DNA from: Scardovia inopinata JCM 12537
GTDB lineage: Bacteria > Actinomycetota > Actinomycetes > Actinomycetales > Bifidobacteriaceae
Length of the DNA: 64,000 nt
Assembly: GCF_001042695.1 (NCBI RefSeq)
Contig: NZ_AP012334.1
Location: 1,364,001-1,428,000 of the forward strand
Reading direction: 5' to 3'
Part shown: piece after piece, positions 8,917 through 47,769 of the stretch
Layout: the number at the start of each line of letters is the position of its first letter
How positions within the stretch are numbered: the stretch's first letter is position 1
The notes under the pieces: generated by a model
The model's database searches: none
What the model saw: only the letters and a program-made list of their open reading frames with translations
Told to the model about the DNA's origin: nothing
Made by a program: the position numbers and the translations under genes

Positions 8917-9732
8917 ATGAGTGAACAAACACACCAGCACGATCAGCAGAACAAATCCAACGACAGGGCTCTCTCTCCAGCAGCACAGGAACTTTTCTCA
9001 ACCCTGGGAACCAGCATCAGCCCCGACCTGTTCGTCGAGGCACTCACCCATCGGTCCTTCACCAACGAGCATCCCCTGGCCCACAATTATGAGAGGCTGG
9101 AATTCCTGGGAGACGCCGTCTTAGAACTGGTTATCACGGAAACTTTGTATAAAAATCATCCCACATATAGCGAAGGACAAATGTCCCGAATTCGTTCCAA
9201 GGTCGTATCTGAAGAATCCCTATCAGAAATTGCCCGGGACAAGCTCAAGATCAGCCAGTTTATTTTGTTGGGAATCGGCGAGCAGAGAGACAAGGGGGCC
9301 TATAAACCTTCCATCCTCTGCGATGTGGTGGAATCCCTCATCGGAGCTGTTTTTATAGAACAGGGAATTGACAAGGCCCGCCAGGTCATCCATCATTTGC
9401 TCGATGATAATCTTGCCTTTTATACCACAGAAGGACCAGCCCTGGACTGGAAAACTGCCATTGTCATCAAGGCTCACAAGATGAACCTGGGCGAAGTGTC
9501 CTACAGAATGGAGATGAGCGGACCCGAAAACCATCTAGAGTTCACCGCTTACCTGCTTATCAATGACCAGGATGTAGCTTGGGGACGAGGAAGTAGCAAA
9601 CGCAAAGCCCAGCTGGATGCAGCTCAGAAAGCCTGGCATCAGCTGGACTCGAAAACTGAATCCATCAACGACGCAAGCCTGCCGGACGCAAGCCTGCCGG
9701 ACGCTACTCTACCGGTGGCAGAAGAGGAATAA
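8917..9732 (+). CDS. rnc: Ribonuclease III
   Basis: RNase III cuts double-stranded RNA in rRNA and mRNA maturation. The product has 271 residues: an RNase III domain with signature [13 protein letters not shown] (about residues 59-71), the second acidic site in [16 protein letters not shown], then a dsRNA-binding domain ([10 protein letters not shown] to [18 protein letters not shown]). After that comes an unusual tail of three five-residue units ([15 protein letters not shown]) encoded by 15-bp tandem repeats at 9670-9714. The last 29 bp overlap the convergent arcB gene. In many actinobacteria rnc follows rpmF; here rpmF is at the far end of the window. Confidence 0.96.
9670..9714 (+). repeat. 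In-frame 15-bp tandem repeat in the rnc 3' end
   Basis: GACGCAAGCCTGCCG occurs at 9670-9684 and 9685-9699, followed by the diverged GACGCTACTCTACCG at 9700-9714. The repeat encodes the RNase III tail and extends into the overlap with arcB on the other strand. Confidence 0.92.
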
Positions 9733-20361: not shown

Positions 20362-20595
20362 CTATCGGCGGGAATCCATAATATCCACGCGAACGCTATG
20401 GTCGGCAATCGCTTGAATAACAGTCCTGATTGCGGTTGCTGTGCGACCGTGACGACCAATCACCCGGCCGATATCCTCAGAATTCACACGCACGCGAATC
20501 AACTCACCTCGCGAATTCTGATATGACTTTACCGACACATCATCTGGAAAATCGACAATATTGCAAATCAGATGTTCCACCGCTTCAGTAAGCAT
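20362..20595 (-). CDS. khpA: KH-domain RNA-binding protein KhpA
   Basis: This 77-residue single KH-domain protein carries the GxxG loop in VIGRHGRTATAIRTVIQAI. KhpA proteins bind RNA and in other Gram-positives work with KhpB in growth and division control. It follows rpsP with a 2-bp gap, which is the usual actinobacterial pairing, and is followed by a terminator. Confidence 0.95.
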   Translation of the reverse strand: MLTEAVEHLICNIVDFPDDVSVKSYQNSRGELIRVRVNSEDIGRVIGRHGRTATAIRTVIQAIADHSVRVDIMDSRR

Positions 20596-20597
20596 TT

Positions 20598-21041
20598 TTA
20601 CTCAGCCTTTTCTTCGGTCTGATCGGTCTCATCGGCAGTTTCAGCCTGTGCAGCTTCGGCTTCCTTAGCCTTCTCCTCAGACTGTGCAGCCTTAAGCTTT
20701 TGAGCCTGGTTTTCAGCAGCCTCAACACGAGCCTGAGCATCAGGCCCCTCTTCAGCTACCTTCAAACTGCCTTCAGCACCAGGCAGACCTTTAAACTTCT
20801 GCCAATCGCCAGTGATCCTCAGCAACTTATGAACTGGATCTGAGGGTTGGGCGCCAACAGACAGCCAGTACTGGGCGCGGTCAGACTTGATCTGGATCAG
20901 GGAAGGTTGCTTGTTGGGATCATAAATGCCGATCTCTTCAATAACCTTACCATCGCGCTTCTTGCGGGAATCCACGACTACTACACGATAGAAAGCATAG
21001 AACTTCCTACCCATACGCTTCAAACGAATACGTGTTGCCAA
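20598..21041 (-). CDS. rpsP: 30S ribosomal protein S16 with long acidic tail
   Basis: The product has 147 residues; the conserved core [21 protein letters not shown] to about residue 90 is followed by an Ala/Glu-rich C-terminal extension ([17 protein letters not shown]) absent from E. coli S16 (82 residues). I place the start at the TTG at 21041, because AGGAG lies 7 nt upstream and the protein then begins exactly at the family N-terminus. The frame is open further upstream, but that leader does not look like S16. It pairs with khpA in an operon. Confidence 0.95.
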
Positions 21042-21285: not shown

Positions 21286-21363
21286 CTCGCCCAACACGCA
21301 TATCTCACCATGCATGTCTCGGCTCACGCAATGCACCCATCCTTACTCACCCAACACGCATAT
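21286..21363. repeat. 18-bp direct repeat between rpsP and trmD
   Basis: CTCGCCCAACACGCATAT at 21286-21303 recurs with one change as CTCACCCAACACGCATAT at 21346-21363, exactly 60 bp later. The second copy is also the left arm of an inverted-repeat element. The 490-bp gap 21042-21531 contains no credible gene and should hold the rpsP promoter on its left side. Confidence 0.85.
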
Positions 21364-21423
21364 ATACAAGAGCCTGGCGCACGACACCAAACCCTGGTCA
21401 TATATAATTGCGCTTTGGGTGAG
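21346..21423. repeat. Inverted-repeat element copy A (78 bp)
   Basis: The left arm CTCACCCAACACGCATATATA (21346-21366) faces the right arm at 21401-21423, which reads on the other strand as CTCACCCAAAGCGCAATTATATA. The arms agree over CTCACCCAA, CGCA and TATATA. The interior is not conserved with the other copies. Its role is unknown; see the related copies at 33601, 33982 and 35823. Confidence 0.8.
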
Positions 21424-21531: not shown

Positions 21532-22374
21532 CTATAATTCCTGAGATTTCCTTGGATGCAAACCTGACAGATCCCAGCCCAAGCCACCAAGAATCTTGCA
21601 ATCCGCTTTATCTAAAGCAGAGCACTCCAGGCGCTCAATAATATCCGGTCTAATCCGTGCCGTCTTTGTCAAAGAATCATCGCGCCGAAAGCGGTTAACC
21701 TTCGCATGGTCCCCGCTCAGAAGAACCGAAGGAACCTCTAATCCGCGCCACTGCGCTGGTTTCGTGTACTGCTGATATTCCAGCAAACCTTCCGCCCCAC
21801 TATAGGATTCTTCCACTATTGAATCAGGATTCCCCATAAACCCTGGAATCAAGCGGGTTATAGCTTCCACCATGACGCTCACTGCCGCTTCCCCCCCATT
21901 AAGAACATAATCCCCAATGGAATATTCACGAACGTCGAGTCCCCGCTCTCGGTAATATGTTGGAATTCGGGCATCATAACCTTCATACCGGCCGCATCCG
22001 AAAATTATGCGCTCTTTTCGGGAGAGGTCATTGGCCTGTTTCTGATTAAACAGCAGAGCGGCAGGGTTGGGGAAAATGAGGACCGGACCGGAAAGCTCTC
22101 CCGATGAACCGGAAAGTTCTCCCGATGATGACAAATCACCAGGCTTTCCCCCAATAAGCTCATCCAGACATTCAGCCCAAACCTCCGGCTTCATCACCAT
22201 GCCTGCCCCCCCGCCAACCGGAGTATCATCAACGGATCGGTGAACATCATGGGTCCACTGCCGCAGATCATGGGTTTGTAAATCGACGATTCCACTATCC
22301 TGCGCCTTACCCAACAAGCTCAGACGAAGTGAATCAAAATAGTCAGGAAAGACGGATACAATATCAATTTTCAT
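21532..22374 (-). CDS. trmD: tRNA (guanine-37-N1)-methyltransferase
   Basis: TrmD methylates G37 of tRNAs with S-adenosylmethionine and prevents frameshifting. The product has 280 residues with the trefoil-knot motifs DDTPVGGGAGMVMKPEVW, GRYEGYDARI and GDYVLNGGEAAVSVMVEAI, plus the C-terminal domain LLEYQQYTKPAQW. Within the N-terminal half, a Ser/Gly-rich insert (GELSGSSGELSG) comes from a 21-bp tandem repeat at 22088-22129. It lies 112 bp downstream of rimM on the same strand. Confidence 0.96.
   Translation of the reverse strand: MKIDIVSVFPDYFDSLRLSLLGKAQDSGIVDLQTHDLRQWTHDVHRSVDDTPVGGGAGMVMKPEVWAECLDELIGGKPGDLSSSGELSGSSGELSGPVLIFPNPAALLFNQKQANDLSRKERIIFGCGRYEGYDARIPTYYRERGLDVREYSIGDYVLNGGEAAVSVMVEAITRLIPGFMGNPDSIVEESYSGAEGLLEYQQYTKPAQWRGLEVPSVLLSGDHAKVNRFRRDDSLTKTARIRPDIIERLECSALDKADCKILGGLGWDLSGLHPRKSQEL
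22088..22129 (-). repeat. In-frame 21-bp tandem repeat in trmD
   Basis: Two 21-bp units (22088-22108 and 22109-22129) differ at two positions and encode the repeated GELSGSS in TrmD. Confidence 0.85.
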
Positions 22375-22486: not shown

Positions 22487-23152
22487 TTATGTCAGATCGA
22501 GCAAACCTCCAGGAGGATCAACAAGAATATAGCCTTCATCAGGATCAACGATGGGAACCAAGGCCTCAACAAAAGGAATTAAGGCCTCTTTCCCGCCAGC
22601 ATCAACCAGTTTCACGGTAATCAGGGGCTGAGGATTGTTAAGATCCACCTCGGAGACATGGCCGATTACATGAGCATCTACACCGTCGTAATCCGCAGCC
22701 AGGGCACTTTCATGGTCATCAACAGCCAGGACCTCCAGGCCAATCAATTCCTGCGGATACCAACCCTCCTCACCGGTCTGTTCATCCTGGGCCGGGGCAG
22801 CATCAGGGGGAACAGGGGGAACGTCTGAATCTGCGGACGACTTGGCTTTGTCAGTACTGGTCTCAGGTGCAGGAACATACAGAATCATTCCTTTTAATTC
22901 TTCAGATGCGTTGCGGTCATCGACCCCCTCAAGCTTGATGATCCATCGGTTTTTGAAAGTTCGCGAGCGCTCAACAGTCCATGATTTCCCCTGATTATCA
23001 AGAAGAATTGATCCCGGCTGAAAGCGGAGCACGGGGCTGTCAGTAAAAACCTGAATGTTAACTTCTCCCTTTAACCCCTGGGCGCGGCCAATTCGACAGA
23101 CGCGAAGTAGCCCATCGGCTTCAGTTTCCAGATAGTTTGTCATGGTTTCCAT
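22487..23152 (-). CDS. rimM: 16S rRNA processing protein RimM
   Basis: RimM helps mature the 30S head and binds S19. The product has 221 residues: an N-terminal RimM barrel (CRIGRAQGLKGEVNIQVFTD), a Pro/Ser/Asp-rich insert of about 30 residues, then a PRC-barrel (GEEGWYPQELIGLEVLAVD to ALIPFVEALVPIVDPDEGYI). The start may be the ATG at 23152 or the one three codons later; neither has a strong ribosome-binding site. It is followed by trmD. Confidence 0.95.
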   Translation of the reverse strand: METMTNYLETEADGLLRVCRIGRAQGLKGEVNIQVFTDSPVLRFQPGSILLDNQGKSWTVERSRTFKNRWIIKLEGVDDRNASEELKGMILYVPAPETSTDKAKSSADSDVPPVPPDAAPAQDEQTGEEGWYPQELIGLEVLAVDDHESALAADYDGVDAHVIGHVSEVDLNNPQPLITVKLVDAGGKEALIPFVEALVPIVDPDEGYILVDPPGGLLDLT

Positions 23153-33600: not shown

Positions 33601-33735
33601 CTCACCCAACTCGCATTTACCTTCTTCCGTAAAAAACTTATTATCCTTTAAGAAAAGGAAAACCAGTACTTCCATCATTATTTTTCCCTCCCTATCTGCA
33701 CGCTATCTGTACACGCTATCTGCACGTTGGGTGAG
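33601..33735. repeat. Inverted-repeat element copy B (135 bp)
   Basis: CTCACCCAAC (33601-33610) and GTTGGGTGAG (33726-33735) are perfect inverted arms. The interior, which is longer than in the other copies, ends with three copies of CGCTATCTGYAC. It lies in the 1.07-kb gap 33259-34334, where no credible gene was found. Confidence 0.82.
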
Positions 33736-33981: not shown

Positions 33982-34058
33982 CTCACCTAACACGAAATTG
34001 ATTTAGAAATGTGCTGATTCTTCAGGCTTATACAAACGGTAATCGCGTGTTAGGTGAG
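33982..34058. repeat. Inverted-repeat element copy C (77 bp)
   Basis: CTCACCTAACACG (33982-33994) and CGTGTTAGGTGAG (34046-34058) are perfect 13-bp inverted arms. Compared with copies A, B and D the arms carry C to T and the matching G to A, so pairing is preserved. The 51-bp interior is not shared with the other copies. Confidence 0.88.
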
Positions 34059-34334: not shown

Positions 34335-35231
34335 TTATCCCAAGAAAACCCTGCGTCGTCGACCATCAGCAATTTTGTGAACAGTCACAGCTGCCCGCGC
34401 CAGCGACAGATCAAACTTTCTCTCGGAAACACCATTGATAGCCTCAATGATGTCGCTAAGAAAAACCGTAAAACGTGCGGAAGAATCAAGAATAAATTTA
34501 TCAATAACGAATATCCGCCAACCTGTTGATTGAATATGATTGACACGCTCGTGGTCACTGTCAATTTGTTGAAGGTGATGCTGCCCATCGTACTCAATTC
34601 CTATGCGAACAGCTGGATAAGCAAGATCAATGAAATTATTCCCTACCTGAACATTGACTCGAGGCTCTGGAAGCCCATGCTGGAGAATTTGCAACCGCAC
34701 ATTCGTTTCCTGTGGAGAATCAGTGCGAGTGCGCATTAGACGCAGCGCACGCAAGCATTTCCTCAGACCGCGGAATCTTTTGCATCGAGCAATGAAAGAC
34801 CGGATTTGTGGAATCGTTGTAAGCGCAAGCTTCTGATCTCGGCAGATCAGTGAATCACCGAACATAATTAACTGCTTAAGCGTAAGTTCCATTGACATTT
34901 GGATGAACAACGCTTCGGGCGAAACACAAGTAATCCCGCTGATTTCGACGACAGACCCTGGGGTATCTGCATTGCTCCAGTACCGACAGCTGACATTTTT
35001 AAGTCTCAGCCGCTGCTCTTTATATCGAACAGCAACAAAAAGTGTCTGGCGCTTAACTGGCAGAGGAACTCCAAGCAAAGCAGCCGCCGTGAAATGACTT
35101 GCTACAATTTCATGTCGGGTGCGGCGCTGGAGATTGATGCACTGCGCGTATGCATCCTGTTGACGGCTCCAGGCAGCATACCGCATGATATTGTCGCGTC
35201 TGGGACGACGCAATATGAGTGAAGCTCGCAT
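34335..35231 (-). CDS. DUF559 (PD-(D/E)XK nuclease-like) protein
   Basis: The product has about 298 residues. The C-terminal third has the DUF559/Vsr-like endonuclease pattern: PRVNVQVGNNFIDLAYPAVR, IGIEYDGQHH, then WRIFVIDKFIL. The N-terminal part is basic with a possible winged-helix region (ASHFTAAALLGVPLP), as in the actinobacterial AbiEi/DUF559 fusions. I place the start at the ATG at 35231 with GGAGG 11 nt upstream; the ATG at 35240 is only 2 nt from that site. The gene stands alone between inverted-repeat elements and has no recognisable partner toxin or methylase. The function is unknown. Confidence 0.75.
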   Translation of the reverse strand: MRASLILRRPRRDNIMRYAAWSRQQDAYAQCINLQRRTRHEIVASHFTAAALLGVPLPVKRQTLFVAVRYKEQRLRLKNVSCRYWSNADTPGSVVEISGITCVSPEALFIQMSMELTLKQLIMFGDSLICRDQKLALTTIPQIRSFIARCKRFRGLRKCLRALRLMRTRTDSPQETNVRLQILQHGLPEPRVNVQVGNNFIDLAYPAVRIGIEYDGQHHLQQIDSDHERVNHIQSTGWRIFVIDKFILDSSARFTVFLSDIIEAINGVSERKFDLSLARAAVTVHKIADGRRRRVFLG

Positions 35232-35822
35232 ATTCTGCATTTCCTCCGATAAATTTCGTTCGACCACGAAGAGAATTCGACCATGAAGTGCAAACGATTG
35301 CAAGCTGATGGCTTTGTTAGCCTCCTACCTACAACCTAAAACATGATGGTTGCTGACTCCAAACTGGCTATTTGCCAGCCCGCTATCCGCGTCTCATCAA
35401 TTTTTGCTTTCCCTCAGGCCGACTTACTTCTCGACGATAGTCTTAACCGTTCAGAATAGGTCTAATATATTGCAAAAAACTTCTATAGAAAAGAGAAAAC
35501 CTCAATGTGGTCGAATGTGGAAAAGCCTCTCATCTTTATGTGGAAAACACGCCGAACTCAAGGAATTTCAACTTCTGATTAGGAAAGCTGACATGACAAA
35601 TTTCCTTAACTCCTAAATACAAGATACGATCCCGTAGATCCCTACATTCTCAATATTTGTACGCCTTCCCTGTTTGAACTTCGCTTGTTTGAATTTTTGT
35701 AGTTTCAAGGACATTTTCTGCTTGTTTAGGATCTCCTGGACCGAGATTTTTCGGCAAGATGCATTTACATGGCTTAAAGACGATTTAATATCGATTTTTT
35801 ACCCAATACACTGCTTAGTTTC

Positions 35823-35899
35823 CTCACCCAACGCGAAGATATAAGAGGGAGACGATTGGAAAGGCTAAAACTTTATCACGGATCTCTTTGTTGGGTGAG
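35823..35899. repeat. Inverted-repeat element copy D (77 bp)
   Basis: CTCACCCAAC (35823-35832) and GTTGGGTGAG (35890-35899) are perfect inverted arms. An inner AAGAG/CTCTT pair is also possible. It lies in the 1.1-kb gap 35232-36368, in which no credible gene was found; the gap also holds a 13-bp direct repeat ACCCAATACACTG (35801-35813 and 36231-36243). Confidence 0.85.
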
Positions 35900-46884: not shown

Positions 46885-47769
46885 TTACGGCAGTTTCTGA
46901 GCAGGGCAGGAAGACAAGGTCGTCATCATGGCTGTTTTTTCGGATTCAGTCACAGTCAGTGAATATTTTTTCTTTACCGCAATCTGCCTGGCAACATAAG
47001 AACACCTGTACCTTTTGTTCGACGGCAGCCACTCATCTGCGGAAGCATCACCCTTGTCCTGATTGGCATTCCCATCGACAGCCAGGAGGTTATAGGGATC
47101 ATTGGCAAACTGATACCGTTTTGCTGTAGACCAGGAACTTGCGCCGGAATTCCAGGCATTGTGCAGGGCAACTACATGATCAATCTGAACCAAAGCACTG
47201 GTGGTAACCCCACGGTGAAAATGTATTGTCTTGCCCGTATACGGATCGACAAGTACTCCGGTATATACCTGGCAGGAGCTTCCCCTCTTGTAGCGAACCG
47301 ACGTCATGTCCCGGGCCAGAACGTCTTCCCTTATATCACAACCATTACCATCATCATCAGTTTGCCGGAATCCGAAAAGATCCCTGTCATAGCCAGATGA
47401 AGAGCCAGAATTCCTGACCGTCAGACTTTGCAGGACATTGGCTGCTTCTCCTGTAGGATTATTGGCTCCGGTAGAAGTGGCAATCTGCGCGCTTACTCGG
47501 GGCAGGATAAGGGCGATAACCAGGCCGACTAAAACAGCTAGGGCAACCAGGAGAGCAAACATTTTCCAACTGGTTTTCCTGCTGCGATAAGCATAACCAT
47601 GGGCTGTCGAGCCTTGAGTTGGCAATGGTTCGGAAGCTGAATACCTAGGATAATCTGAGGGATCAGGATCAGGGGCATCGGTAATAGGGAATTTGCCTTG
47701 CTCCTCCCCGCCAGCAGAATCCTTCTGCCACGAACCTGACGTATCCAATCTGTTTCCCCTTGATACCAT
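46885..47769 (-). CDS. Secreted or membrane-anchored HNH endonuclease (DUF1524/GmrSD C-terminal type)
   Basis: The product has 294 residues: a polar N-terminus of about 65 residues, one membrane segment (FALLVALAVLVGLVIALIL), and an extracellular nuclease domain. Catalytic motifs are VQIDHVVALHNAW (His of the HNH motif) and PYNLLAVDGNANQDKGDASADEWLP (Asn and downstream residues). Cysteine pairs (CDIREDVL, SSCQVYTG, RCSYVA, LSSCP) fit an oxidising environment. Such nucleases are common in actinobacteria and probably scavenge DNA. It is next to the ABC ATPase remnant, but no functional link is shown. Confidence 0.85.
   Translation of the reverse strand: MVSRGNRLDTSGSWQKDSAGGEEQGKFPITDAPDPDPSDYPRYSASEPLPTQGSTAHGYAYRSRKTSWKMFALLVALAVLVGLVIALILPRVSAQIATSTGANNPTGEAANVLQSLTVRNSGSSSGYDRDLFGFRQTDDDGNGCDIREDVLARDMTSVRYKRGSSCQVYTGVLVDPYTGKTIHFHRGVTTSALVQIDHVVALHNAWNSGASSWSTAKRYQFANDPYNLLAVDGNANQDKGDASADEWLPSNKRYRCSYVARQIAVKKKYSLTVTESEKTAMMTTLSSCPAQKLP

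Follow-up and report, generated by a model that had tools for sequence, protein, structure and literature searches.

The stretch of DNA analysed here, termed the window, comprises 64,000 nucleotides of Scardovia inopinata JCM 12537 and corresponds to positions 1364001-1428000 of a single contig of 1,797,862 bp. On its minus strand the genes rimM and trmD are followed by rpsP and khpA (table 1), and the gap between the two pairs is 490 bp long if rpsP starts at the TTG codon at 21041, as a preliminary description of this DNA had it. The same description placed in the gap an inverted repeat, element A, and an 18-bp direct repeat with copies 60 bp apart at 21286 and 21346. Both are real: the arms of element A (21346-21371 and 21398-21423, 26 nt each) are 77% complementary and span 78 bp from outside to outside, and the copies of the direct repeat are identical at 17 of 18 positions. 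Because the half-site at 21286 keeps the 60-bp pitch of the two half-sites of element A, the element is a triple of half-sites rather than a pair. The larger point, missed in the preliminary description, is that element A belongs to a family of elements associated with a nuclease gene.

Table 1. Features of the window, in window coordinates, and intergenic gaps holding elements in both Scardovia species, in genome coordinates.
Feature	Position	Strand	Remarks
khpA	20362..20595	-	
rpsP	20598..21041	-	starts with TTG; together with khpA, inverted relative to ffh here and in G001
Third half-site (CTCGCCCAACACGCATAT)	21286..21303	+	60-bp pitch, equal to that of the two half-sites of element A
Element A	21346..21423		78 bp; two inverted half-sites of about 20 bp and an unconserved middle
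trmD	21532..22374	-	inverted with rimM in S. inopinata and S. wiggsiae, not in G001
rimM	22487..23152	-	
rnc	8917..9732	+	orientation ancestral in the window; in S. wiggsiae the gene is inverted and flanked by two inverted elements
135-bp element	33601..33735		same family as A, long middle; downstream side of nuclease gene
77-bp element (CTCACCTAAC...GTTAGGTGAG)	33982..34058		277 bp downstream of nuclease gene
DUF559/Vsr-like nuclease gene	34335..35303	-	322 aa; proposed cognate gene; PF04480 23.8 bits, cut-off 20.6
77-bp element	35823..35899		520 bp upstream of nuclease gene
Common gap 1	1352.3-1352.7 kb		S. wiggsiae 202.8-203.4 kb
Common gap 2 (element A)	1385.3 kb		S. wiggsiae 168.7-169.1 kb
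Common gap 3	1397.6-1398.1 kb		S. wiggsiae 155.5 kb
Common gap 4	1399.8 kb		S. wiggsiae 153.8 kb

The sequence CTCACCCAANNCGCATAT, with up to three mismatches allowed, occurs six times in the window against 0.52 occurrences expected, and none of 100 shuffles reaches six. Across the whole S. inopinata genome, CTCACCCAACNCGCATAT with the same tolerance gives 17 matches, against one for the reversed control. Members of the family measure 76-78 bp and consist of CTCACCYAACNCGNAGATAC in two inverted copies, separated by a middle that is not conserved. The pattern CTCACCYAA-N40-70-TTRGGTGAG identifies 12 palindromes in S. inopinata and nine in Scardovia wiggsiae F0424 (NZ_AKCI01000001, 1,550,817 bp), all 21 of them 76-78 bp long. 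There are no matches in 56 other genomes or in the third genus member (G001, 1,890,857 bp), a congener without Scardovia-type elements that is presumably Parascardovia denticolens, which leaves two of 59 genomes positive. Two subfamilies are present in S. inopinata: six copies with ...CG... after AAC/AAA all lie within 1313-1400 kb, and six copies with ...AACTG... (AACTGCA) ends are scattered at 496-1590 kb. The nine S. wiggsiae elements lie within 50 kb. The consensus was derived from 30 half-sites, namely those of the 15 first-subfamily palindromes (six from S. inopinata and nine from S. wiggsiae); conservation ends at about position 24, and beyond this nothing is conserved.

A scan for decayed copies, covering about 132 kb of S. 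inopinata and 75 kb of S. wiggsiae, accepted palindromes of 74-80 bp with up to four mismatches in 20 end positions. Apart from the known copies, which had no more than one mismatch, it returned a known copy read in a shifted register and two matches with three or four mismatches; decayed copies are therefore rare in the stretches examined. Extra half-sites at a pitch of about 46-60 bp occur at 21286 in the window and at 1313.5-1313.9 kb and 1352.5 kb of the S. inopinata genome. The row at 1313544-1313864 (L040) consists of seven half-sites about 45-60 bp apart, three forward and then four reverse, forming a nested palindrome upstream of a gene read as glycoside-hydrolase-like; pieces that read like an IS3-type transposase (1316236-1317458) lie 2.4 kb from it. 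The two arms of a Scardovia element are no better matched to each other than to the arms of other elements (95 of 150 matches against a permuted mean of 92.9, with 687 of 2000 permutations at least as high), and two binding sites therefore fit better than a selected hairpin.

The region at 1350-1417 kb of S. inopinata is collinear with 145-205 kb of S. wiggsiae, and four intergenic gaps hold elements in both species (table 1). No counterpart was found in S. inopinata for the S. wiggsiae sites at 150.1, 157.7, 181.3 and 182.4 kb, and the S. inopinata site at 1313 kb lies beyond the stretch compared. When whole elements are compared in pairs, the two closest pairs both come from S. wiggsiae, and in each the members are inverted copies of each other; their middles are identical at 32 of 38 positions (153797/157704) and 24 of 37 positions (181336/182360), against a median of 39% for 105 pairs. 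Beyond the genus, species genomes of the GTDB were scanned with CTCACCYAACN{55,60}GTTRGGTGAG, which matched at least 119 stretches. Among the matches listed, the majority belong to a GC-rich repeat with twin hairpins, present in Caulobacteraceae MAGs, that has the same ends through low complexity, and only four S. wiggsiae stretches looked like true relatives. The GC-rich repeats (CCCTCACCCAACCCTCTCCC...; L043-L161) are abundant, resemble REP dimers and are unrelated to the Scardovia family. Scanned viral contigs contain no copy of the element, phage records give no match to element A, and a search of the window against Rfam returns three tRNAs and nothing at element A. A chromosome-domain site (like matS) was considered and rejected, since in both species about a quarter of the genome separates the cluster from dnaA, which places the cluster at neither origin nor terminus.

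Three of the window elements lie around a gene for a nuclease. The encoded protein scores above the gathering score of PF04480, which places it in the DUF559 family, and it also matches the MTES_1575 REase domain (PF18741) with 24.5 bits, below the gathering score of 38.2. Pfam searches with seven members of the homolog set described below give mainly DUF559 and MTES_1575; an AbiEi N-terminal domain is absent from the window protein and appears in one of the seven, at an E-value of 0.07 only. Among 60 of the 70 homologs that could be aligned (250-400 aa, no internal stop), D226 is conserved in 100% and E237, G240, H243 and D250 in 92-98%, a pattern that we take to be a PD-(D/E)XK-type site. 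AlphaFold, run on two sequences, gave a useless model (mean pLDDT 38). In the available part of one report, VsrA of Caulobacter is a DUF559 protein that is Vsr-like and belongs to the PD-(D/E)XK superfamily, with a predicted role in mismatch repair tied to cytosine methylation; flanking palindromes are not mentioned in that part (PMC12907096). MTES_1575 is described as a Vsr-family REase that forms one part of a larger protein (over 2000 aa) also containing HEPN, helicase and wHTH regions (PMC3710099), whereas in the window nuclease the weakly matching domain forms the C-terminal part of a stand-alone protein of about 320 aa.

The S. wiggsiae ortholog of the nuclease is 54% identical and likewise lies between elements (153797 and 155496). 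In G001 the gene is missing at this site, where the matches to perm (406331-407731) and rpf (from 407967) are 235 bp apart. Elements are concentrated near the nuclease gene: all three non-adjacent sites in S. inopinata lie within 86 kb (p 0.0009) and five of six sites in S. wiggsiae within 50 kb (p 6e-6), with all distance limits picked after the sites had been seen and the two species not independent. Judged by the position of dnaA, most elements of either species (1313-1400 kb in S. inopinata, 150-203 kb in S. wiggsiae) lie towards the terminus from the gene, and this represents one shared history. In S. inopinata, an element of the AACTGCA type immediately precedes the likely start of a second DUF559 gene (about 435.7-436.8 kb), so that both subfamilies include a copy neighbouring a nuclease gene. 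Another DUF559 gene, at 951 kb in S. wiggsiae, carries at its start a 93-bp palindrome whose arms contain CGCAGATAC. Elsewhere in the window, positions 46885-47769 encode a 294-aa protein with a GmrSD C-terminal/HNH domain (PF07510, 75 bits). The ortholog in S. wiggsiae adjoins half-sites at 150148-150294, whereas the window copy does not.

DUF559 proteins are among the common uncharacterized nuclease-like proteins of actinobacteria, and many of the genomes searched encode several. We assembled a set of 70 homologous genes from 29 genomes out of 81 rows, leaving out three second pieces of included genes and eight rows (six genes) that were excluded; gene starts in this set are estimates, and the genes at L200, L206 and L253 are too long as delimited. 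A gene was scored as positive if the longest word common to its two 600-bp flanks reached at least 15 nt, the maximum of the word search being 59 nt. With L194 dropped (its gene ends were not determined), 34 of 69 DUF559 genes are positive, compared with four of 241 control ORFs of 250-450 aa (Fisher p 9e-22); before this removal the count was 35 of 70. Other controls gave 0 of 292 cross-genome flank pairs, two of 177 window pairs and 14 of 508 window pairs in matched genomes. The shared word is palindromic, with an inverted pair in at least one flank, for 28 of 69 genes against four of 241 control ORFs, and in both flanks for seven of 69 against none of 241; the palindromic positives span 17 of the 29 genomes. 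There are 35 misses among the 69, including L212, which is counted as one because its start was placed too far in and the upstream element fell outside the tested flank. The window gene and its S. wiggsiae ortholog also fail, with longest shared words of 9 and 10, because their elements share only a degenerate motif and, in S. inopinata, lie 277-520 bp away; the link between the window gene and the elements is one of position and clustering.

The arrangement can be compact. In G039, 46-bp hairpins lie on both sides of the gene, one beginning 108 bp ahead of the start codon and the other 11 bp beyond the stop codon, and in G043 palindromes lie 143 bp before the gene and 2 bp past it. Two of two named Arthrobacter loci outside the set, both plasmid loci (replicons NZ_AP024649 and NZ_CP012477), fit as well. 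Only two of 72,556 plasmid records carry nuclease genes of this kind and a viral scan with a single peptide pattern found one weak relative, so that DUF559 genes are rare in collections of mobile DNA. Some DUF559 genes have other surroundings: L189, L190, L233, L234 and L242 (from G007, G022 and G033) have direct repeats on both sides at a pitch of about 72-74 bp, unlike simple palindromes, and L214 (G001 289076-289927), a miss in the 15-nt test, lies between two long, transposon-like inverted repeats, with arms of 82 nt that are 88% complementary and 1183 nt apart.

Each palindrome family that was searched for in its genome of origin is scattered well beyond its gene. Copies outnumber matches to the reversed-pattern control by 25 to 0 in G039, 13 to 1 in G057, 47 to 1 in G043, 32 to 0 in the Arthrobacter ERGS1:01 replicon and 18 to 1 in G001, where they represent nine palindromes, two of which are beside the gene; in StoSoilB13 the ERGS1:01 pattern has no match (control, one). 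Changes in the arms are symmetric in four cases and asymmetric in four in G001 (10 of 2000 permutations as high), and symmetric in 19 and asymmetric in 15 in G043 (0 of 2000). Such changes are thus common to both arms beyond what permuted pairs give, and in these two genomes palindromy itself has been kept. Clustering near the gene is found in ERGS1:01 (four of eight within 38 kb, p 0.005, the limit picked after seeing the sites) and is not general, as G001 (0 of 7) and the second S. inopinata family (1 of 6) indicate. In Arthrobacter sp. cf158 (L089, 6120-6250), four half-sites CGCTCTCTCACC, two forward and two reverse, have a 32-bp pitch within each orientation; the 8 kb examined contain no DUF559 match, and the group may represent a dispersed member of yet another family of this type.

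A REPIN is an inverted pair of a short unit with a free middle, and the Scardovia elements are likewise inverted pairs of a short unit around a free middle. In REPtrons and TIRtrons, a chromosomal RAYT (TnpA-REP) gene has palindromes on both sides, more copies of them are dispersed, and each gene has palindromes of its own (PMC3733652). The likeness lies in a nuclease-like chromosomal gene flanked by palindromes scattered through the genome, with several genes per genome and different palindromes for each. Flanking palindromes that are also dispersed are the mark of a REPtron; palindromes flank many DUF559 genes (34/69 by shared word, 28/69 by palindromic word; the window gene by position only) and are dispersed in every family searched for. 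Since these genes are flanked by palindromes that are also dispersed, and that differ from gene to gene as in RAYT/REP, we propose that element A is rather probably a dispersed copy in a REPIN/RAYT-like system using an unrelated Vsr-like DUF559 nuclease, with the window gene as its putative cognate. There are differences: the gene encodes a DUF559/Vsr-like nuclease and not a HUH tyrosine transposase of the IS200/IS605 group, the consensus CTCACCYAACNCGNAGATAC contains no GTAG tag, the half-sites are about 20 bp long and some families cluster near the gene. The nuclease would bind a pair of inverted 20-bp half-sites at a spacing of about 60 bp and would cut or nick the DNA there, which would allow the element to be copied to new intergenic sites during repair; in the Scardovia family most copies are found close to the gene. 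Where two copies of opposite orientation lie near each other, the intervening DNA might then flip, as rnc in S. wiggsiae suggests and possibly the trmD/rpsP junction.

The palindromes might instead be operator or binding sites only, through which the DUF559 protein or another regulator controls its own and other genes and nothing moves. Sharp half-sites with a free middle and fixed spacing are what such sites would look like, and extra half-sites at a regular pitch and the four gaps occupied in both species agree with this. The elements are found in convergent, divergent and tandem gaps alike, however, often 200-800 bp from any start; elsewhere copies are scattered genome-wide, one often just past the stop codon of the nuclease gene, and the alike inverted pairs of whole elements in S. 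wiggsiae look like the product of copying. We regard operators as an unlikely explanation.

The idea that the inverted repeat may mark the break in the rpsP/trmD operon or have taken part in it, raised in the preliminary description, can be considered alongside the proposed nuclease-driven copying. The one-strand order rpsP-khpA-rimM-trmD, which that description called usual, is found at 10 of 11 loci of other genera in the family, where the genes share the strand of ffh and, at two of these loci, a distance of 1.4-3.8 kb separates rimM from trmD; at the remaining locus trmD was the only gene recovered. S. wiggsiae shares the derived order of S. inopinata and has two elements in the trmD/rpsP gap. 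Alignment across Bifidobacteriaceae, dating the rearrangement against the presence of elements, had been suggested as a check, with the same order in close relatives lacking the element counting against the idea. The outcome across S. inopinata, S. wiggsiae and G001 is mixed. Element-free G001 shares the inversion of rpsP-khpA, which therefore happened without the element; rimM-trmD keeps its old orientation there, and the presence of elements and the inversion of rimM-trmD thus fall on the same branch. With one block inverted in G001 and both in the two Scardovia species, the rearrangement took two steps, the second on the element-bearing branch: rpsP-khpA flipped first, and rimM-trmD later. 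That the element caused both breaks is improbable. The coincidence of element and rimM-trmD inversion in the same two species speaks for it, as does the flipped rnc of S. wiggsiae, but elements occur at one rimM-trmD breakpoint only, the rimM/lplA breakpoint (about 30 bp) having none, and G001 has inverted an rpf-like gene where none of these elements is present.

The clearest case for involvement of the elements in an inversion would be rnc in S. wiggsiae rather than rpsP/trmD. There rnc is inverted, whereas S. inopinata, G001 and G024 (the one outgroup locus showing rnc) keep the old orientation, and it sits between two inverted elements (181336-181412 and 182360-182436), the first of which is overlapped by 9 bp by the longest ORF form of rnc. 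The similarity of the middles of these two elements is the second highest of the 105 pairs. A second element-linked inversion, of rpf, was considered and rejected because the outgroups share the S. inopinata orientation relative to trxA (13 of 13 loci showing both genes; one further locus lacks trxA), so that the orientation in G001 is the derived one.

Like MITEs, the elements are short, multi-copy and intergenic, with inverted ends and a small fixed size. They could thus be conventional MITEs derived from a DDE insertion sequence that lie close to the DUF559 gene by coincidence, yet we hold this to be very improbable: no site duplication is visible by eye beside the four window elements, the middle differs between copies instead of being conserved, and a nuclease gene with palindromes of its own recurs in unrelated families. 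The one longer unit bounded by element-type ends that was inspected holds a DUF559 gene. Least probable of all is an insulating role, in which the palindromes beside the nuclease gene would act as transcription terminators or mRNA stem-loops. Several genomes do have one palindrome directly behind the stop codon and a second 80-200 bp ahead of the start, but the four examples inspected show no terminator-type T-run after their stems, upstream and downstream copies share words of up to at least 59 nt, many copies are far from the gene, and Scardovia half-sites are as complementary to those of another element as to their own partners. Integrons have attC boxes of the form RYYYAAC/GTTRRRY, which the element ends fit; the CTC/GAG outside them is equally conserved, and attC sites were provisionally set aside.

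A literature search that covered few subscription journals found no recognized description of DUF559 genes with cognate palindromes. Whether actinomycetes harbour a widespread second class of REPtron-like selfish palindromes, based on stand-alone Vsr-like DUF559 nucleases that each keep their own palindromes, seed copies locally and chromosome-wide, and can flip genes between copies, seems to us evenly balanced. If they do, each DUF559 protein would come with a cognate DNA sequence that is a directly testable substrate, and the lifestyle of a single gene plus dispersed palindromes would have arisen with an enzyme unrelated to RAYT. Such systems would also be a source of small local inversions of core genes, for example rnc and perhaps rimM-trmD.
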